From positions 1 through 16,565 of the forward strand of contig JADZCL010000285.1 of assembly GCA_020851615.1 (NCBI GenBank): a stretch of 16,565 nucleotides of DNA. The letters run 5' to 3'. The notes below the pieces were generated by a model, which did not search any database, was not told the origin of the DNA, and was given only the letters and a program-made list of their open reading frames with translations. Below are positions 6,408 to 16,565 of the stretch, one piece after another (position 1 is the stretch's first letter; each line of letters opens with the position of its first letter). The position numbers were made by a program, and so were the translations under genes. Origin of the DNA: Rubrivivax sp. (GTDB lineage Bacteria; Pseudomonadota; Gammaproteobacteria; Burkholderiales; Burkholderiaceae_C).

Positions 6408-7636
6408 GCGAAGGCGCGGGCGAGGTCGCGCTCGCCGATATCGAGGCTGCCGCCGCGCGCCTGGCCGGGCAGGTGCTCGAGACGCCCTGCCTGGAATCCA
6501 GGACCTTGTCGCAGCTCGTGGGGACGCGCGTCTTTCTGAAGTTCGAGAACCTTCAGTTCACGGCCTCGTTCAAGGAGCGTGGGGCGCTCAACAAGCTGTT
6601 GGGTCTGCTGGCCGAACGCGACGCCGGGCGGCTGGCGCTGCGGGGGGTGATCGCGGCTTCGGCGGGCAACCACGCGCAGGGGGTGGCGCATCACGCCCAG
6701 CGCCTGGGCCTGCGCGCGGTGATCGTCATGCCGCAGTTCACGCCGCTGGTGAAGGTCGAGCGCACGCGCGGCTTTGGTGCCGAGGTGGTGCTGCACGGTG
6801 ACAGCTTCGATGCCGCGCACGCGCACGCGTTGCAGATGGCGCAGGCGCAGGGCCTGTCCTTTGTCCATCCCTTCGAGGACCCGCTGGTGATCGCCGGGCA
6901 GGGCACCATCGGGCTGGAGATGCTGCGTCAGCAACCGGAACTCGACACGCTGGTGATCGCGGTGGGTGGCGGCGGCATGATCGCCGGCATCGGGCGCGCA
7001 GCGCGGGCACTGCGGCCCGCGTTGCAGATCGTCGGCGTACAGGCCGAGCGCTTCCCGGCGATGTTCAACCGCATCAAGGGCACCGCGCACCCGCAGGGCC
7101 AGGTGACGATTGCCGAGGGCATTGCCGTGGGGCAGCCGGGGGCGCTGAACAGCCGCATCGTCGCCGAGACCGTCGACGACCTCGTCCTCGTCGACGAAGG
7201 CGATCTCGAGCAGGCGGTGCTGATGCTGCTGGAGATCGAGAAGACGGTCGTCGAAGGCGCGGGCGCGGCGGGCCTGGCGGCCCTGCTGCGCCACCGATCG
7301 CGCTTTGCCGGGCGCACGGTGGGGCTGGTCCTCAGCGGCGGCAACATCGATCCGCTGCGGCTGGCAGCGATCATCGAGCGCGGCATGGTGCGCGCCGGGC
7401 GGCTGGCGCGCATCCGGGTGGCGGCGCGCGATCACCCGGGCGTGCTGGCGACCCTCACGACGCTGGTGGCGCGGGCGGGGTGCAATATCGACGAGGTGCA
7501 CCACCATCGTGCCTTCTCGACGCTGTCGGCGCAGAACGTCGAGATCGAACTGGTGCTGCAGACGCGCAACCCGGCACACGTGGCCGAGGTGGTGCGCATT
7601 CTGCAGGCCGAGGGCTTCGAGGCGGCCGCGTACTGA
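6404..7636 (+). CDS. ilvA: Threonine ammonia-lyase, short form with one ACT domain
   Basis: This PLP enzyme of 410 residues deaminates threonine to 2-oxobutanoate, the first committed step to isoleucine. The PLP lysine is Lys57 in TASFKERGA, the cofactor phosphate loop is the Gly-rich VGGGGMIAGIG, and ASAGNHAQG is the usual substrate loop. The C-terminal 75 residues (from RIRVAARDHPGVL) form a single ACT domain, as in the roughly 400-residue TdcB-plus-ACT class, unlike the roughly 510-residue E. coli IlvA with a longer regulatory region. The start is the TTG at 6404 overlapping the tldD stop, with a GGGGG stretch as possible ribosome binding site; no ATG is available near the conserved N-terminus. 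Translation is probably coupled to tldD. The ACT domain suggests allosteric control by an amino acid, probably isoleucine or valine. Confidence 0.9.
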   Translation: MSEGAGEVALADIEAAAARLAGQVLETPCLESRTLSQLVGTRVFLKFENLQFTASFKERGALNKLLGLLAERDAGRLALRGVIAASAGNHAQGVAHHAQRLGLRAVIVMPQFTPLVKVERTRGFGAEVVLHGDSFDAAHAHALQMAQAQGLSFVHPFEDPLVIAGQGTIGLEMLRQQPELDTLVIAVGGGGMIAGIGRAARALRPALQIVGVQAERFPAMFNRIKGTAHPQGQVTIAEGIAVGQPGALNSRIVAETVDDLVLVDEGDLEQAVLMLLEIEKTVVEGAGAAGLAALLRHRSRFAGRTVGLVLSGGNIDPLRLAAIIERGMVRAGRLARIRVAARDHPGVLATLTTLVARAGCNIDEVHHHRAFSTLSAQNVEIELVLQTRNPAHVAEVVRILQAEGFEAAAY

Positions 7637-7666
7637 CGCGTGACGGGCGGCCGCGTCCGGCCGTGC

Positions 7667-7672
7667 TACATT
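7667..7672 (+). promoter_or_regulatory. Probable -10 element for the aroG leader transcript
   Basis: TACATT lies seven bases before the ATG of the leader peptide, so transcription would begin at or next to that A. The hexamer is close to TATAAT and to the TACAAT elements at 4900 and 9640. No convincing -35 is present at normal spacing; GTGACG at 7640-7645 is 21 bp away. The position agrees with the lack of any ribosome binding site before the leader ORF. Confidence 0.5.
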
Positions 7673-7679
7673 GCGCGCC

Positions 7680-7748
7680 ATGCGTTGCGCGCCGTATTTC
7701 TTTGCGTACTCTTGGTTCTCGCCCCAATCGGCGGCTGGAGAGGCCTAG
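7680..7748 (+). CDS. Aromatic-rich leader peptide of the aroG attenuator
   Basis: A 22-codon ORF from ATG 7680 to TAG 7746-7748 encodes a peptide in which residues 6-13 read YFFAYSWF: two Tyr, three Phe and one Trp among eight codons. Such density of the end-product amino acids of the downstream enzyme is the signature of ribosome-mediated attenuation, as in trpL, pheL and hisL. Ribosomes would pause at codons 7695-7718 when charged tRNA for Phe, Tyr or Trp is scarce. The first five residues and the last nine look unremarkable. There is no Shine-Dalgarno sequence; the -10-like TACATT seven bases upstream suggests a leaderless mRNA beginning at this ATG, as described for the trpL leader in Sinorhizobium. 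The peptide itself probably has no separate function. Confidence 0.82.
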   Translation: MRCAPYFFAYSWFSPQSAAGEA

Positions 7749-7783
7749 ACGCACGCAACGAACACGCAGCGCAAACCCCCTTC

Positions 7784-7814
7784 GAACCGCCGGTGACCCC
7801 GGCGGTTCTTTTTT
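7784..7814 (+). terminator. Intrinsic terminator inside the aroG leader (attenuator terminator)
   Basis: A perfect 10-bp stem, GAACCGCCGG at 7784-7793 and CCGGCGGTTC at 7799-7808, has a five-base loop TGACC and is followed directly by six T (7809-7814). It is the best intrinsic terminator in the window. It ends 30 bases before the aroG ATG and after the leader ORF, so any transcript entering aroG from ilvA or the leader promoter must read through it. Confidence 0.88.
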
Positions 7815-7844
7815 GCCACGCCCACATCAACGAAGAGCAGATCG

Positions 7845-8984
7845 ATGAGCCCCAAAGCCTCCCCCGGCAGCGCCCCGCAGGGCGAAGCACGCCTGGCGCT
7901 GTCCGAGAAGACCAGCCAGACCGACGACCAGCGCATCCGCGAGATCACGCCGCTGCCACCTCCCGAGCACCTGATCCGCTTCTTCCCGATCGCGGGCACG
8001 CCGGTGGAGACGCTGGTGGGGCAGGCCCGGCAGACGGTGCGCCGCATCATGAATGGCGAGGACGACCGCCTGCTGGTCATCATCGGCCCGTGCTCGATTC
8101 ACAACCCGGAAGCCGCGCTCGAGTACGCGCGGCGGCTGGCCGCCGAGCGCCAGCGTCACGCCGGCGAGCTCGAGATCTTCATGCGCGTGTACTTCGAGAA
8201 GCCGCGCACGACGGTGGGCTGGAAGGGGCTGATCAACGACCCCTACCTCGACGAGAGCTTCCGTATCCACGAGGGCCTGCGCATCGCGCGCCAGCTGCTG
8301 GTGGACATCAACCGCCTGGGCGTGCCCGCGGGCAGCGAGTTCCTGGACGTCATCAGCCCGCAGTACATCGGCGACCTGATCGCCTGGGGCGCGATCGGCG
8401 CGCGCACGACCGAGAGCCAGGTGCACCGCGAGCTGGCTTCGGGTCTGTCGGCGCCGGTGGGCTTCAAGAACGGCACGGACGGCAACCTGCGCATCGCCTG
8501 CGACGCGATCCAGGCCGCGGCCAAGCCGCACCACTTCCTCTCGGTGCACAAGAACGGCCAGGTGGCGATCGTGCAGACCAAGGGCAACAAGGACTGCCAT
8601 GCCATCCTGCGCGGGGGCAAGACGCCCAACTACGATGCCGCCAGCGTGGCGGCCGCCTGCAAGGAAATGGAGGCCGCCAAGCTGCCCTGCCGTCTGATGG
8701 TCGATGCCAGCCATGCCAACAGCAGCAAGCAGCACCAGCGCCAGATCGAGGTGCTGCGCGACGTCGGGGCCCAGCTGGCCGCGGGAAGCTGCAGCATCTT
8801 CGGGGTGATGGTCGAGAGCCACCTGCAGGCCGGGGCGCAGAAGTTCAACCCCGGCAAGGACGACCCGGCGGGTCTGGTCTACGGCCAGAGCATCACCGAC
8901 GCCTGCATCGGCTGGGACGATTCGGTCGAGGCGCTGCACATCCTGTCCGCCGCTGTGCGGGCGCGGCGGCGGCACGCCGCCTGA
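7845..8984 (+). CDS. aroG: DAHP synthase, class I (AroG type)
   Basis: 3-Deoxy-7-phosphoheptulonate synthase joins phosphoenolpyruvate and erythrose-4-phosphate, the entry step of the shikimate pathway to Phe, Tyr and Trp. The 379-residue protein aligns throughout with E. coli AroF/G/H: DDRLLVIIGPCSIHNP, MRVYFEKPRTTVGWKGL, SEFLDVISPQYIGDLIAWGA, IGARTTESQVHRELASGL, VGFKNGTDG, GNKDCHAILRGGK, DASHANSSKQ and GVMVESHL, with the metal-binding Cys, His, Glu and Asp residues of the family in these blocks. It is about 25 residues longer at the N-terminus than AroG, starting with a low-complexity segment. The N-terminal DDQRIREI stretch that forms part of the feedback-inhibitor site is kept, so allosteric inhibition is likely. 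A weak GAAGAG precedes the ATG. The leader attenuator upstream would add control by aromatic tRNA charging. Confidence 0.95.
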   Translation: MSPKASPGSAPQGEARLALSEKTSQTDDQRIREITPLPPPEHLIRFFPIAGTPVETLVGQARQTVRRIMNGEDDRLLVIIGPCSIHNPEAALEYARRLAAERQRHAGELEIFMRVYFEKPRTTVGWKGLINDPYLDESFRIHEGLRIARQLLVDINRLGVPAGSEFLDVISPQYIGDLIAWGAIGARTTESQVHRELASGLSAPVGFKNGTDGNLRIACDAIQAAAKPHHFLSVHKNGQVAIVQTKGNKDCHAILRGGKTPNYDAASVAAACKEMEAAKLPCRLMVDASHANSSKQHQRQIEVLRDVGAQLAAGSCSIFGVMVESHLQAGAQKFNPGKDDPAGLVYGQSITDACIGWDDSVEALHILSAAVRARRRHAA

Positions 8985-11147: not shown

Positions 11148-12038
11148 CTAGCGGCGCGCGCGCCGTCGTGCGGCCGCAAGGCCGAGCAAGCCGACCGCGG
11201 CGAGCGCCAGCATGGCGGGCTCGGGCACATTCGACGCACCCGGCGCGGCGAAGATGCTCCCGGGCGTATAGCCCGCTGTTCCGCCCCAGGATGCACCGAC
11301 ATCGCTGGCCCAACTGCCCGGCGCGAAGGTGAAGCTGAAGCTGTAGAACCCGTTCAGCGCGGGGTTGGTCGTCGACTGGTTCTCGAAGATGCCGCTGGCG
11401 CTGCCGGTCATCGAATCGGGATCCGCTGCCGTCTCGTACCAGGTGGTGGTGTTGTTGTAGCTGGCGGCGGTCAGGAAGTTCGCCTGCAGCGAGAGGCCGA
11501 AGCTGTGGAAGAACCCGCTTGTGTCGCCAGAGGGCCCACCCAAAGAGGGTGCGGCCCACAGGCGCGCATAGTTGAAGCTGTCGCCGGTGCCGCCGGTCAC
11601 GTGGACCGTGAAGGTCTTGTTGCCGTTGGACCAGCCCCCGTTGACTGTCGGCGTGGCCGTTTCGTCGTAGTACTGGACGAAGCCCGTGTTCGTGTTGTTG
11701 GGGTTGCCCCAGCCATTGCCGTTGCCCGGAGACTGGGTGAAGTACCACGCAGTCGAGAAGTAGGCCACATCGCTCGGGTCATAGGCTGCGGAGCTGCTGG
11801 CCAGATAGAGATTCCCATCGCGGGCGTTCGTGCGTGTTGCGGCACTGCCATTGGTTGCCGTCGCGATGCTCGTGCTGGACATCGCGTTGGTTCCGGCCTG
11901 CGCGTCGGCCAGTGTGGCGTAGCGAGTCACCAGCCCCGAGTAGGTGAAGTTGTCGTAGGCCACGTACAGCATGCCTGCAGACGCAGGAAAGGCCGAGACG
12001 ACAGACGTGATTGCGATCAATTTCTTCAGCATGTGCAT
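11148..12038 (-). CDS. PEP-CTERM sorting-signal exported protein 1
   Basis: The 296-residue protein has a Sec signal peptide (MHMLKKLIAITSVVSAFPASA) and, at residues 271-296, a complete PEP-CTERM tail: VPEP, a hydrophobic helix of about 16 residues and a terminal RRRARR cluster. Such tails are recognised by exosortase (EpsH/XrtA), which cleaves and anchors or releases the protein at the outer surface, usually with exopolysaccharide production. The body is rich in Gly, Ser, Thr, Asn and Tyr/Trp and looks like a beta-sandwich surface protein; I recognise no catalytic motif. The start at 12038 is supported by GGAGAG seven bases upstream; ATG 12032 is the alternative. No exosortase is in the window. 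Function unknown, perhaps biofilm or floc matrix. Confidence 0.85.
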   Translation of the reverse strand: MHMLKKLIAITSVVSAFPASAGMLYVAYDNFTYSGLVTRYATLADAQAGTNAMSSTSIATATNGSAATRTNARDGNLYLASSSAAYDPSDVAYFSTAWYFTQSPGNGNGWGNPNNTNTGFVQYYDETATPTVNGGWSNGNKTFTVHVTGGTGDSFNYARLWAAPSLGGPSGDTSGFFHSFGLSLQANFLTAASYNNTTTWYETAADPDSMTGSASGIFENQSTTNPALNGFYSFSFTFAPGSWASDVGASWGGTAGYTPGSIFAAPGASNVPEPAMLALAAVGLLGLAAARRRARR

Positions 12039-12157
12039 CGGAGCTCTCCAGTTGACGCCAATCGGTCGGTGCGCGTAAGCATCATTCGGGCCAAAGAGAA
12101 ATTCCTCCACATTTGTAACGACTTGCAGAGCACTGCCCCGGTGCGGAGATCAATAGT

Positions 12158-12347: not shown

Positions 12348-12354
12348 CATGCAA

Positions 12355-13233
12355 ATGAGTTGGAACAAGCTGTCGCCCCTCGCGCTGGTCGCCGCACTGG
12401 CCTTTGCGGGTGCCGCACAAGCGGGTCTCGTCGTCGAAGCCAACAATCCGGCCGGCGACGTCTTTGCCGGGTCGGGAAGCAGCGGCAAGGGCCAGGCGCT
12501 GGGAAGCAGCGGCTGGTACTACAACAACGCGCGGGCGAACACGAAGATCGGCATCAGCGGCGACGAGCCGCGCTCGGGCAACGGATCGGTCTACTTCCAG
12601 GGCCAGACCAGCGGCTCGAAGGCCGACATCGAGTACCTGGTGAACGGCGCCAAGCCGTTGTTCAGTCAGAACTACGCGTCCACCGGCACGCTGGGCAACT
12701 TCTCGGACCTGAGCGCGATGAGCTACGAGTGGTATCGCGACAGCAGCAGCACTGCAACCGGCCACTTCCACGCGGTGATGCGCGTGCTGATCGACCGTGA
12801 CGGCAACCTCAACACCGCGGGTGACCGCGGCGGGCTGGTGTTCGAGCGCATCTACAACGCGCTGGGTGTCTCGACCGACGCCTGGGTGCAGGACAGCATC
12901 ACCGGCACGACCAATGTCTGGAACTTCGGCCTGGGGCTTGGCACCGGCTTCGACATTGACGGCAACGGCTATGCCTACGACGACACGCTGGCGGCATGGC
13001 AGGCATACATGCCCAACGCGAAGATCATCGGCTTCAGTGCGGGCATCGGTTCGGGCTGGAGCGGCAGCTATGTCGGTGCGGTCGACAACGTCTCGTGGAC
13101 GATTGCCGGGGTGACTTCGTCGTTCAACTTCGAGCTGACCGACAGCGGCGACGTGCCCGAGCCCGGCACGCTGCTGGTGGCTGCTGCGGGGCTGCTGGGC
13201 CTGGCCGCCACGCGCCGCCGCCGCGTTCGCTGA
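12355..13233 (+). CDS. PEP-CTERM sorting-signal exported protein 2
   Basis: The 292-residue protein has a signal peptide ending AGAAQA-G and a C-terminal PEP-CTERM tail at residues 267-292: VPEP, hydrophobic helix, then RRRRVR. Exosortase would process it at the inner membrane during export to the cell surface. The body is Gly/Ser/Asn-rich with repeated Trp and Tyr positions and an acidic DRDGNLN and DIDGNGYAYDD pair that resembles calcium-binding loops, though this is only a resemblance. It shows no evident similarity to the divergent PEP-CTERM protein outside the tail. A sigma-54 promoter lies directly upstream. Function is unknown; a role in the extracellular matrix is an inference from the sorting signal. 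Confidence 0.85.
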   Translation: MSWNKLSPLALVAALAFAGAAQAGLVVEANNPAGDVFAGSGSSGKGQALGSSGWYYNNARANTKIGISGDEPRSGNGSVYFQGQTSGSKADIEYLVNGAKPLFSQNYASTGTLGNFSDLSAMSYEWYRDSSSTATGHFHAVMRVLIDRDGNLNTAGDRGGLVFERIYNALGVSTDAWVQDSITGTTNVWNFGLGLGTGFDIDGNGYAYDDTLAAWQAYMPNAKIIGFSAGIGSGWSGSYVGAVDNVSWTIAGVTSSFNFELTDSGDVPEPGTLLVAAAGLLGLAATRRRRVR

Positions 13234-13319: not shown

Positions 13320-14936
13320 TCAGCCCGGCGGGTTCACGCTCCAGCGCTGCGTCACTTCGCCGGCGGCGTTGGTACTCTCCAGGTGCACGCCGAAACCCCA
13401 CAGCCGTGCGACGTGCTTGATGACTTCTTCGGCGCTGTCGTGCAGTGGACGCTCGTTGTGCTGGAAGTGTCGCAGGGTGAGGCTGCGGTCGCCGCGCAGG
13501 TTGACGTTCCAGACCTGGATGTCGGGTTCGCGGGTGCCGAGGTCGTATTGGCGTGAGAGCGATTCGCGCAGGCGGCGATAGCCGGCCTCGTCGTGGATCG
13601 CGGCGACCTCGAGCTCGGCGTCCTTCTCGTCGTCGCGGATGGCGAACAGGCGCAGCTCGCGCATCAGCCGCGGACTCAGGTACTGGCCGATGAAGCTCTC
13701 GTCCTTGAAGTTGCGCATCGCCTGGTCGAGCGCGGGCAGCCAGGGCGTGCCGGCGATATCGGGGAACCATTCATGGTCCTCGGCGGTCGGTTGCTCGCAG
13801 ATGCGCTTGATGTCGGTGTACATCGCAAAGCCCAGCGCGTAGGGGTTGAGCCCGCTGTAGGCTGGATGGCCCACCGGGGGCTGCGCGATGACGTTGGTGT
13901 GCGACTTCAGCCACTCGATCATCACGCCGTCGACGAGATGGCCGTCGTCGTACATCTGGTTGAGCAGCCGGTGGTGCCAGAACGTGGCCCAGCCTTCGTT
14001 CATGACCTGCGTCTGGCGTTGCGGGTAGAAGTACTGGGCGATCTTGCGCACGATGCGCATGACCTCGCGCTGCCAGGGTTCGAGCAGCGGCGCGTTCTTC
14101 TCGATGAAGTAGAGCAGGTTCTCCTGCGGCTCCTCGGGGAAGCGCTTGCTGTCGTGGTCGGTGTGCTCCTTTTCCGCGCGGCGCGGCAGCGTGCGCCAGA
14201 GGTCGTTGACCTGCTGCTGCGCGTACTGCTCGCGGTCCTTGCGCTCGGCCAGTTCCTGCGCAAGCGACTTGCGCGTGGGGCGACGGTAGCGGTCCACGCC
14301 GTGATGGGACAGCGCGTGGCAGCTGTCGAGGAAGAGCTCGACGGCGTCGATCCCGTGGCGCTCTTCGCACTGGCGCACGTAGTTCTTGGCGTAGACGAGG
14401 TAGTCGACGATGGACGCCGCATCGGTCCACATGCGAAAGAGGTAGTTGCCCTTGAAGAAGCTGTTGTGGCCGTAGGCGGCGTGGGCGATGACGAGGGCCT
14501 GCATCGCCATCGTGTTCTCTTCCATCAGGTAGCTGATGCAGGGGTTGGAGTTGATGACGATCTCGTAGGCCAGGCCCATCGCGCCGCGCTTGTAGTTCTT
14601 CTCGGTGGCGATGAATTCCTTGCCGTAGCTCCAGTGGCGGTAGTTGACGGGCATGCCCACGCTGGCGTAGGCGTCCATCATCTGCTCGGCCGTGATGATC
14701 TCGAGCTGGTTGGGGTAGGTGTCCAGGCCGAAGCGCGCGGCTGTGTTGCGGATGACCTCGTGGTAGCGCTCGATCAGCTCGAATGACCAGTCGCTGGGGC
14801 CCGGCAGGGGCTGCGAAGGTCGCGCCGGGGATGGCAAGGGCTGCACTTGCCGACGTGCGCCGGCACGGCGATCGCCGTCATGCGGGATGCGTGCTCGATC
14901 GTGCACGCGGCGACGTTCGTAGCCGGGATCGTTCAT
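13320..14936 (-). CDS. spoVR: SpoVR family protein (YcgB)
   Basis: Full-length SpoVR homologue of 538 residues, near the size of E. coli YcgB (about 510) plus a longer N-terminus. Recognised blocks include DWSFELIERYHEVI, LDTYPNQLEIITAEQMMDAY, VNYRHWSYGKEFI, YEIVINSNPCISYLMEENT, AHAAYGHNSFFKGN and MNEGWATFWHH. The His/Glu clusters in the last two blocks look like a metal site, but the biochemical function is not established; in Bacillus the protein affects spore cortex formation. The first 46 residues are Arg/Pro-rich and not conserved, and ATG 14936 lacks a Shine-Dalgarno sequence, so the start is uncertain (GTG 14846 is possible). It is the third gene of the prkA-yeaH-spoVR operon, 33 bases after yeaH. 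Confidence 0.92.
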   Translation of the reverse strand: MNDPGYERRRVHDRARIPHDGDRRAGARRQVQPLPSPARPSQPLPGPSDWSFELIERYHEVIRNTAARFGLDTYPNQLEIITAEQMMDAYASVGMPVNYRHWSYGKEFIATEKNYKRGAMGLAYEIVINSNPCISYLMEENTMAMQALVIAHAAYGHNSFFKGNYLFRMWTDAASIVDYLVYAKNYVRQCEERHGIDAVELFLDSCHALSHHGVDRYRRPTRKSLAQELAERKDREQYAQQQVNDLWRTLPRRAEKEHTDHDSKRFPEEPQENLLYFIEKNAPLLEPWQREVMRIVRKIAQYFYPQRQTQVMNEGWATFWHHRLLNQMYDDGHLVDGVMIEWLKSHTNVIAQPPVGHPAYSGLNPYALGFAMYTDIKRICEQPTAEDHEWFPDIAGTPWLPALDQAMRNFKDESFIGQYLSPRLMRELRLFAIRDDEKDAELEVAAIHDEAGYRRLRESLSRQYDLGTREPDIQVWNVNLRGDRSLTLRHFQHNERPLHDSAEEVIKHVARLWGFGVHLESTNAAGEVTQRWSVNPPG

Positions 14937-14969
14937 GGTGGTGACGGCGATCGGCTGGGCCCCTGCGGG

Positions 14970-16256
14970 TCAGGCCGCCGCCTGCTCCTTCTTGAACAGG
15001 TCGCGGAAGACCGGGTAGATCTGCGAGGCCTCGACCGCCTTGCGCATGGCGAAGTGCCGGTGCGTGCTGGCCAGCTGCGTGTATTCCTCCCAGAGGTTCT
15101 GCTCTTCCTCGGCCACCTGCACGTAGGCGAAGTAGCGGCACAGCGGCAGCAGCTTGTCGTTGAGGAGCTCCCGGCAGCGGCCCGAGTCGTGGTGCCAGTT
15201 GTCGCCGTCGCTGGCCTGGGCGCCGTAGATGTTCCACTCGGACGGGCTGTAGCGTGCGCGAACGATCTCCTCCATCAGCACCAAGGCGCTGCTCACCACG
15301 GTGCCACCGGTCTCGCGCGCATGGAAGAAGTTCTCCTCGTCCACCTCCTGCGCCTGGGTGTGGTGGCGGATGAAGACGATGTCGATCTTCTCGTAGTGCC
15401 GCGTGAGGAACAGGTAGAGCAGGATGAAGAAGCGCTTGGACAGCTCCTTGCGGGCTTCGTCCATCGAGCCCGATACGTCCATCAGGCAGAACATCACCGC
15501 CTTGCTCGTGGGGACCGGGACCCGCACCCTGTTGCGAAAGCGCAGGTCGATCGGATCGAGGTAGGGGATGCGCTCGAGCCGCGCCTTCAGCGCCGCAATC
15601 TCCTGCTCGAGCGGGGGGATCTGGGCGCGGGCGCCGGCGTCTCCTGCTGCGGCAGCCGCGTGCAACTCGATCAGGTGCTGCTCCATCTCGCGCAGTTCGC
15701 GCCGCGAGCCCGCGCCGATGGCCAGGCGCCGACCGATCGCGCCGCGTATCGATCGCACCACATGCAGGTTGGTGGGCGTGCCGTCGTTGGTGTAGCCGGC
15801 GCGGTGGCTGCGCCACTCGGGTGTTTCGGCCAATTGCGTGCGTATCAGGTGCGGCAGTGCAAGATCTTCGAAGAAGACCTGCATGAACTCTTCCTTGCTC
15901 AGCGCGAAGCTGAAGTCGTCCTCGCCCTCTCCCGAGTCGCTGGCCTGGCCCTTGCCGGAGCCACCGCCTTGCCCGCCCTTGGGGCGCTGGATGCGGTCGC
16001 CGCGCAAGTACTCCTTGTTGCCCGGATGCACCATCTCGCGCGTGCCACCCTGGCCATGGTGGAACACCGGCTGCGAGAGATCCTTCTTCGGGATGTGCAC
16101 CTCTTCACCGCGCTCGAGGTCACGGATGCCGCGGCCATCGACGGCGCGTTTGACGGCCTCGCGGATCTGCTCCTTGTAGCGGCGCATGAAGCGCTCGCGG
16201 TTGCCGATGGACTTGTTCCTGCCCGCCAGCCGCCGGTCGATGATCGATTGAAGCAC
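14970..16256 (-). CDS. yeaH: YeaH/YhbH family protein (DUF444, VWA-like)
   Basis: This 428-residue protein aligns along its length with E. coli YeaH. IDRRLAGRNKS near the start, a Gly-rich low-complexity stretch around residues 105-125, then VMFCLMDVSGSMDEA with a MIDAS-type DxSxS (Asp260, Ser262, Ser264), FIRHHTQAQEVDE, ETGGTVVSSAL and AQASDGDNW. The von Willebrand A-type metal site suggests protein-protein contacts, perhaps with the kinase PrkA or SpoVR; in E. coli YeaG and YeaH act together in long nitrogen starvation. The start is the GTG at 16256: AGGGGGA (16268-16262) lies five bases upstream, and conservation begins within a few residues. The longer reading to 16415 runs antisense-like into prkA and is rejected. 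Confidence 0.94.
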   Translation of the reverse strand: MLQSIIDRRLAGRNKSIGNRERFMRRYKEQIREAVKRAVDGRGIRDLERGEEVHIPKKDLSQPVFHHGQGGTREMVHPGNKEYLRGDRIQRPKGGQGGGSGKGQASDSGEGEDDFSFALSKEEFMQVFFEDLALPHLIRTQLAETPEWRSHRAGYTNDGTPTNLHVVRSIRGAIGRRLAIGAGSRRELREMEQHLIELHAAAAAGDAGARAQIPPLEQEIAALKARLERIPYLDPIDLRFRNRVRVPVPTSKAVMFCLMDVSGSMDEARKELSKRFFILLYLFLTRHYEKIDIVFIRHHTQAQEVDEENFFHARETGGTVVSSALVLMEEIVRARYSPSEWNIYGAQASDGDNWHHDSGRCRELLNDKLLPLCRYFAYVQVAEEEQNLWEEYTQLASTHRHFAMRKAVEASQIYPVFRDLFKKEQAAA

Positions 16257-16261
16257 GCGCG

Positions 16262-16268
16262 TCCCCCT
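16262..16268 (-). promoter_or_regulatory. Ribosome binding site deciding the yeaH GTG start
   Basis: AGGGGGA on the minus strand is five bases before GTG 16256, in the 28-base gap after prkA. It makes this the translation start even though no ATG is near. Confidence 0.75.
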
Positions 16269-16284
16269 GTTGCACAGGCGTGGG

Positions 16285-16565
16285 TCAGCTGCTCTTGCGC
16301 ACGCGCAGGTACCACTCGCACAGCAGGCGCACCTGCTTGGGCGTGTAGCCCTTGGCGACCATGCGGGTGACGAAGTCCTCGTGCTTCTTGGCCTCGTCGG
16401 CGCTGGCCTTGGCATTGAAGCTGATGACCGGCAGCAGTTCCTCGGTGTTGGAGAACATCTTCTTCTCGATCACCGCGCGCAGCTTCTCGTAGCTCGTCCA
16501 CAGCGGGTTCTTGCCCTGGTTGTTGGCGCGCGCGCGCAGCACGAAGTTGACGATCTCGTTGCGGA
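16285..16565 (-). CDS. prkA: PrkA (YeaG) serine protein kinase, C-terminal part
   Basis: The last 92 residues of a gene that enters from beyond the right edge. The frame is open to 16565, and the segment RNEIVNFVLRARANNQGKN, EKKMFSNTEELLPVISFNAK and QVRLLCEWYLRVRKSS is nearly identical to the C-terminus of E. coli YeaG. PrkA has an N-terminal AAA+ ATPase module and a kinase-like C-terminal domain; the ATPase part is not in the window. It is the first visible gene of the leftward prkA-yeaH-spoVR operon, with yeaH starting 28 bases after its stop. In E. coli the genes respond to general stress and nitrogen starvation; promoter information lies outside the window. Confidence 0.95.
   Translation of the reverse strand, partial: RNEIVNFVLRARANNQGKNPLWTSYEKLRAVIEKKMFSNTEELLPVISFNAKASADEAKKHEDFVTRMVAKGYTPKQVRLLCEWYLRVRKSS

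Follow-up and report, generated by a model that had tools for sequence, protein, structure and literature searches.

A predicted attenuator with an aromatic-rich leader peptide upstream of the DAHP synthase gene aroG in Burkholderiales

DAHP synthase sets the carbon flow into all aromatic compounds. The locus described here raised the question of whether a short aromatic-rich ORF and a hairpin that precede an aroG-like gene form an attenuator, which would offer a defined answer to how the DAHP synthase step is controlled in these bacteria. The locus lies in the window, by which we mean the whole stretch of 16,565 nucleotides of Rubrivivax sp. DNA that was analysed; its source genome comprises 2.56 Mb in 435 contigs and is 76% complete. 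As judged from the comparison of relatives, attenuation is by far the best reading, and the element is very probably a ribosome-mediated transcription attenuator of the DAHP synthase gene.

Parts of the element and conservation in close relatives

The initial annotation had described a 22-codon ORF with six aromatic codons in eight (YFFAYSWF), a 10-bp terminator followed by six T, and aroG, and all of these were read directly in the DNA (Table 1). The product of the aroG-like gene scored 521.5 bits against TIGR00034 (cut-off 173.2) and 533.1 bits against the stricter AroG model NF006723, which is 35 bits under the cut-off of 568. Elsewhere in the window, ORFs at 11148-12110 (-) and 12349-13233 (+) showed VPEPxxL, hydrophobic and RRR ends of a kind typical of PEP-CTERM sorting signals, and two ORFs at 13320-16415 (-) resemble the SpoVR and YeaH (DUF444) pair.

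Table 1. Features of the aroG leader region in window coordinates.
Feature	Position	Strand	Remarks
Extended -10 promoter-like element TGCTACATT	7664..7672	+	7 nt upstream of the leader ATG
Leader ORF MRCAPYFFAYSWFSPQSAAGEA	7680..7748	+	22 codons and stop; ATG 7680-7682, TAG 7746-7748
Aromatic codon block Y F F A Y S W F	7695..7718	+	6/8 codons aromatic
Tyr, Trp and Phe codons of the block	7707-7709, 7713-7715, 7716-7718	+	block codons closest to the switch
Region 1 (Trp-Phe-Ser-Pro codons)	7713..7724	+	predicted to pair with region 2 when the leader is untranslated; weak against shuffles
Region 2, antiterminator 5' arm (CGGCGG..TGGAG.GG)	7729..7743	+	predicted fold, family comparison
Region 3, antiterminator 3' arm	7777..7793	+	contains the terminator 5' arm
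Terminator 5' arm GAACCGCCGG	7784-7793	+	read directly; loop TGACC next
Region 4, terminator 3' arm CCGGCGGTTC	7799..7808	+	perfect 10-bp stem
Intrinsic-terminator T tract, six T	7809..7814	+	read directly
aroG-like gene, type I DAHP synthase (3-deoxy-7-phosphoheptulonate synthase)	7845..8984	+	predicted regulated gene; ATG at 7845, 30 bases past the T tract

The window was compared with a close set consisting of the best 80 of at least 592 confirmed relatives by AroG protein, and among these listed matches the nearest neighbours were Rubrivivax, Aquabacterium, Ideonella and similar. We found an aromatic ORF upstream of aroG in all of the best 80 of at least 592; 79 of these ORFs reached at least five aromatic codons in eight, and that of L082 had four. 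The 3' side of the terminator was matched in 81/81 elements (the window and the best 80 of at least 592). The initial annotation had staked its reading on homologous regions keeping both the aromatic ORF and the terminator, and both were retained throughout this set. In the window's genus, the element was present in 11 of 13 genomes, its own included, and the two genomes without it were 78-79% complete. The records L055 and L017, titled Rickettsia typhi MAG bin and Terrimicrobiaceae, carried an aroG gene and leader close to those of Burkholderiales; these contigs are probably mislabelled or contaminants.

Coding constraint and the amino acids of the leader peptide

The codon use of the leaders pointed to a translated peptide. 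In the densest eight-codon stretch of 166 leaders, Phe was encoded by TTT 446 times and by TTC 250 times, Tyr by TAT 111 times and by TAC 150 times, and Trp by TGG 121 times; the Leu, Ile and Val codons one step away occurred at most three times each, and there were no stop codons. In the two other frames of the leaders, the number of aromatic residues per eight codons never rose above four. A density of at least six in eight was found in 148 of 169 leaders compared with 3 of 16,900 composition-keeping shuffles, and when 89 stretches upstream of aroG were read as their reverse complement, five or more in eight appeared once. From this coding constraint we infer that the leader ORF is translated. 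A U-rich untranslated RNA, considered as another reading of the leader, was ruled out by the codon use. The pooled element sets used here and below include the best 80 of at least 592 AroG relatives together with covariance-model matches, and the sets for codon use, spacing, pairing and the ribosome model omit L084, which is the window again, and L150.

The position of the aromatic codons was also related to region 2. Among codons starting at least 11 nt before region 2, 1027 of 1959 (52%) were aromatic, whereas beyond this point the number was 21 of 1368 (1.5%), and in 140 of 151 leaders the start of the last aromatic codon lay 11-15 nt ahead of region 2. In this test, region 2 was chosen blind to the peptide, using the 151 of 169 elements that have a single GGCGG.

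As for which amino acids may count, Phe was present in 81, Tyr in 76, Trp in 75 and all three in 70 of the 81 leaders (the window and the best 80 of at least 592). Among 92 elements from the window's family and the best 80 of at least 592, 61 had Phe, Tyr and Trp codons all at 11-26 nt from region 2. In other families, Phe and Tyr without Trp was the commonest combination near region 2 (40/75), and all three were found in 19/75. This position count covered 167 of 169 elements, and the choice of region 2 took account of where the last aromatic codon lay. Comparison of 61/92 with 19/75 indicates that the trivalent reading belongs to the window's lineage more than to the whole element. The idea that all three aromatic amino acids are sensed, as first annotated, thus held anatomically for the close leaders, but in other families leaders with Phe and Tyr prevailed. 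Leaders of the Phe/Tyr and Phe/Tyr/Trp types provide a natural series on how one attenuator may read several amino acids.

An attenuator with such a leader may in practice respond to one amino acid, Phe or perhaps Trp, with the others tolerated or minor, and we regard this as a serious possibility, albeit somewhat below even. It would agree with the Phe-Tyr-Phe aroR leader of C. glutamicum, which according to passages of PMC11802643 answers Phe limitation and not Tyr limitation. Phe was also the only aromatic residue present in every one of the 81 leaders (the window and the best 80 of at least 592), and the control positions in other families were mostly without Trp. However, Trp and Tyr were nearly as widespread as Phe in the same 81 leaders, as counted above, and Trp mostly lay nearest the switch.

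Competing RNA structures and the predicted switch

In the proposed attenuation mechanism, RNA polymerase would start at or beside the leader AUG. With an ample supply of charged Phe-, Tyr- and Trp-tRNA, the leading ribosome would reach the stop codon and cover region 2; regions 3 and 4 would then form the terminator, and transcription would stop near 7814. Under a shortage of charged tRNA, the ribosome would stall on an aromatic codon with its leading edge just short of region 2, which would be free to pair with region 3, such that the terminator would be blocked and aroG would be transcribed.

Folding, a check proposed in the initial annotation, gave a minimum free energy of -62.9 kcal/mol for 7670-7830 (z -3.24), and 0/200 dinucleotide shuffles were as low. 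In the predicted antiterminator of the window, 7729-7743 paired with 7777-7792, which is close to the originally drawn pairing of 7727-7743 with 7776-7794. The predicted antiterminator uses the 5' arm of the terminator, so the two structures would be mutually exclusive. Its core, in which region 2 (GGCGG..GAGAGG) is at the end of the leader ORF, was predicted in 80 of 81 elements (the window and the best 80 of at least 592; the exception was L075), and in this set the mean energies were -21.4 kcal/mol for the antiterminator core and -19.5 kcal/mol for the terminator. The originally drawn pairing between regions 1 and 2 needed adjustment: 7690-7694 (GCGCC) is an incomplete match to 7729-7733 (CGGCG), and 7691-7695 (CGCCG) matches it. 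A better-conserved region 1 partner was found in the Trp-Phe-Ser codons at approximately 7713-7724, which are predicted to pair with GGCGG..GAGAG. The 1:2 hairpin formed by these codons was modest, with -12.4 kcal/mol compared with -10.1 kcal/mol for mononucleotide shuffles in 69 segments, from which L012, L024 and identical segments were excluded.

Covarying 2:3 and 3:4 stems, which the initial annotation had named as a sign to look for, were not seen among close relatives, and correlated change was found across families. In particular, RNAalifold on the close-set alignment (52 of 81 elements, hand-thinned of near copies, with relatives from the best 80 of at least 592) returned the terminator only, with 0/8 pairs covarying, because the GGCGG/CCGCC core hardly varies there. 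Across families, the flanking pair of the terminator (3:4) was G-C in 110, A-T in 47 and otherwise in 11 of 168 elements. The region 2 base agreed with region 3 in 108 of the 154 elements with exact GGCGG in region 2 (C with G in 80, T with A in 28); the crossed combinations numbered 12 and 10, and another base was present in 24. The Fisher p for this agreement was 3e-11 on 130 elements, a value that ignores shared ancestry. Additionally, own-family pairing was stronger than that of between-family swaps in 12 of 14 families for 2:3 and in 13 of 14 for 3:4, as computed for 164 of 169 elements, in which region 2 was chosen in view of the last aromatic codon. The attenuator reading of the initial annotation was thus supported by the coding constraint, the spacing and the correlated change of regions 2, 3 and 4.

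The conserved GGCGG..GAGAGG and the alternative structures could also be expected of a metabolite riboswitch or T-box in place of a translated leader. However, a scan of the window against Rfam 15 gave no family at gathering score, the conserved purine stretch is explained as the antiterminator arm and tends to change with its partner, and the codon-level constraint is strong. We consider a riboswitch or T-box highly improbable and rejected it as a candidate.

We examined the predicted attenuator with an equilibrium model in which the ribosome hides 12 nt past the first base of the A-site codon; the model covered 158 of 169 elements, and the position of the last aromatic codon guided the choice of its region 2. 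When the modelled ribosome stalled at the best control aromatic codon, 2:3 exceeded 0.5 in 156/158, and when it stood at the stop codon, the antiterminator exceeded 0.5 in 0/158. The modelled antiterminator probability in the window went from 1.00 at Phe13 to 0.00 at Ser14. According to the model, the control codons are placed so that a stalled ribosome would free region 2 and a ribosome at the stop codon would cover it. A modelled stall at early aromatic codons also freed 2:3 in 139/155, and the equilibrium model therefore singles out no control codon. In ribosome-free RNA, the modelled antiterminator exceeded 0.5 in 58/158, and the untranslated state is therefore not uniformly off. Thus, the model supports the stop-codon and stall states and not a uniform off state without translation.

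Alternatively, the leader might act on aroG by coupled translation or reinitiation and not by termination, as the leader ORF precedes the gene on a predicted single transcript. Against this, a terminator-like hairpin and T tract intervene between leader and gene in 168 of 171 parsed elements, with the window counted twice (the terminator was unparsed in L016, where the stretch is cut at the gene start, L116 and L150), and the aromatic codons are positioned relative to the antiterminator arm. Coupled translation is accordingly most unlikely as the main effect of the leader.

The predicted transcript of the attenuator would begin at the leader itself. The pattern TGnTAnnnT with a 6-8 nt spacer preceded the start in 72 of 76 elements (the window and the best 80 of at least 592) compared with 11 of 15,200 random positions. 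This count omits L017, L041 and L045, as well as L075 and L082, for which no start was picked; all five parse once the start is set by the -10 element. A -10-like hexamer lay 6-9 nt before the start in 81/81 (the window and the best 80 of at least 592), where the spacing is part of the selection, as the close-set parse admitted only leaders with four aromatic residues and with TAnnnT placed 6-9 nt ahead of the start. The start codon in these 81 leaders (the window and the best 80 of at least 592) was ATG in 79 and GTG in 2. A stretch of approximately 12 bases, CYGTGCTACATT, was conserved upstream in the close set (best 80 of at least 592), and no conserved -35 was found in this set. As there is no conserved -35 and too little space for a Shine-Dalgarno site, we predict a leaderless leader mRNA that starts at its AUG. 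The -10 pattern with ATG occurred once in the window's own genome, which is 76% complete. Outside the window's family, TAnnnT was found 5-10 nt before the start in 42 of 77 leaders, and motifs resembling Shine-Dalgarno sites preceded 7 of 89 leaders overall. The leaders of families f32, f8, f11, f20 and f3 were mostly without either a -10-like hexamer or a Shine-Dalgarno-like site.

A threonine ammonia-lyase ORF (ilvA) on the same strand ends at 7636, 148 bases before the hairpin, and the hairpin could be its 3' terminator with the aromatic ORF present by chance, but this reading is extremely unlikely and was ruled out, as IlvA was upstream in 7 of 78 loci with enough sequence (of the best 80 of at least 592) and in 0 of 29 other loci while the element keeps to aroG, and the promoter-like element and the coding constraint lie between ilvA and the hairpin.

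Wider distribution and relation to known regulators

A covariance model, R1, was built from 52 of 81 elements (the window and the best 80 of at least 592), and within the order it matched 130 of 399 genomes at E <= 1e-3. Whole-model (1-143) matches numbered 100 in 99 genomes; the remainder were partial and mostly covered the terminator only. All 90 fetched matches, window included, adjoined a DAHP synthase gene on the same strand; they comprised 89 full-length matches and G098 (16-143), and the full-length matches left out were G330, G052, G144, G060, G104, G301:C119, G211, G382, G357, G181 and G320:C2. A leader with at least five aromatic codons in eight was present in 85 of the 90, with fewer in L126, L156, L169 and L170, while L150 was unparsed; examples are MSAKFYFYFFWHLRPLADREG, MKFASPAFYFYFYGFLKPLAEEGTRSI and MKLAHFFFFFYFSYSKPQAVGRR.

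In a class-wide R1 search, 17 of 369 genomes matched, three of them from the window's family. Six full-length matches lay outside the order, and four of these (L263-L266; three in family f63 and one in f68) preceded aroG and had both an aromatic leader and a terminator. Two weak full-length matches, L269 and L273, had no aroG nearby and were rejected as false positives. In a quick tree, the AroG proteins of L263-L266 fell among f4 proteins of the order, which may mean that gene and attenuator were transferred together. A plasmid search with 7660-7830 gave no match.

A census independent of the model revealed a close AroG homologue (E <= 1e-60) in 82 of 110 genomes of the order, and by the criterion used the leader was present at the best aroG copy in 25 and absent in 57 of the 82. 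The census read upstream of the best aroG copy, or of the tandem pair in G022, and the 25 are made up of 17 plus G000, G003, G019, G022, G043, G066, G069 and G088, the last with only four aromatic codons in eight. Among 15 second aroG copies read in other genomes (L248-L262), none reached five aromatic codons in eight. The window's own genome has a second DAHP synthase (L002), which showed no such leader upstream by eye and no R1 match, and attenuation of this gene was rejected.

In a quick AroG tree of 126 rows, the leader label changed 7 times compared with 12.6 times when shuffled, and 0/500 shuffles were as low. The rows comprised 112 with a leader, 13 without and one uncounted; 20 of the close set (best 80 of at least 592) were used, 17 duplicate rows were dropped, and L085-L173 except L150 were taken as leader-bearing on their R1 match. 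Rows without a leader inside leader clades included small genomes of 1.7-2.2 Mb (G031, G076, G053 and G101), which suggests that the leader was lost in some lineages.

TrpR was found in 0 of 21 genomes (the window's own and relatives), with the control positive in E. coli and B. subtilis, and TyrR was above cut-off in 0 of 13 genomes, where all matches were sub-threshold. According to passages of a regulon survey, many groups within the Gammaproteobacteria have kept TrpR and TyrR, and other classes lack them (PMC5343134). The TrpR/TyrR pattern fits attenuation as the main control of aroG, although it does not prove it. We tentatively propose, with slightly less than even confidence, that across much of the Burkholderiales the element is an old, mostly vertically inherited attenuator, leaderless in many families, which replaces TyrR/TrpR at the entry to the shikimate pathway, and that in the Comamonadaceae/Sphaerotilaceae-like line, including the window, it became a trivalent sensor in which scarcity of Phe, Tyr or Trp alone would be enough to turn on DAHP synthase.

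An aroR-aroF attenuator of C. glutamicum was reportedly described by Neshat et al. in 2014. Excerpts of three papers place a Phe-Tyr-Phe leader peptide before the DAHP synthase gene there (PMC11802643, PMC4046766, PMC7356990), and aroF transcription is described as rising on ribosome stalling under Phe limitation (PMC11802643, in part). The window element is similar in having an aromatic leader peptide upstream of DAHP synthase. In contrast, C. glutamicum belongs to another phylum, and its aroR, likened here by description and not by sequence, has a shorter aromatic run with no Trp reported in those excerpts; here, Phe, Tyr and often Trp lie nearest the switch, and the element spans many families of one order of Proteobacteria. 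A second likeness, also by description, is the predicted uORFC-13-1 motif, which combines Phe codon(s) in a uORF with a neighbouring terminator before DAHP synthase; as excerpted, its 24 representatives precede aroF and come from Acholeplasma and environmental sequences alone, and the same source cites an older attenuation hypothesis for E. coli aroF (PMC8632094). The initial annotation, which named trp, pheA and pheST as the known aromatic attenuators, had overlooked the DAHP synthase leaders of C. glutamicum and Acholeplasma.

In passages of PMC11802643, the E. coli trp, pheA and pheST attenuators read Trp- or Phe-charged tRNA, and repression by TyrR and TrpR is given for aroF and aroH, two DAHP synthase genes of E. 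coli. The window element resembles these attenuators in its leader peptide and its competing antiterminator and terminator, but the E. coli target genes differ. Its predicted leaderless start would resemble that of trpL-trpE(G) of Sinorhizobium meliloti, where the attenuator RNA is described as leaderless and starting at the leader ATG, whereas S. meliloti trpL senses Trp and controls trpE(G) (PMC7298713, in part). Predicted attenuators also precede the DAHP synthase operon aroA(I alpha)-tyrA of Vibrio, listed as putative structures in the Merino database (PMC1173090, Table 7); the passages on them name no leader peptide. Thus, the mechanism class is already known, and DAHP synthase as an attenuation target has precedents elsewhere; the wide conservation, the predicted leaderless start and the predicted multi-aromatic sensor appear to be new. 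We found no description of a Burkholderiales aroG attenuator in the open-access literature, and subscription surveys could list one; the main-text passages of PMC2965389, PMC4833913 and PMC11109978 that concern such elements make no mention of it. The attenuator would also be a ready amino acid sensor for synthetic biology.

We also observed that G022 carried tandem DAHP synthase genes (L117; 2637489-2638529 and 2636369-2637412) behind one aromatic leader, and a single attenuator may serve both genes.
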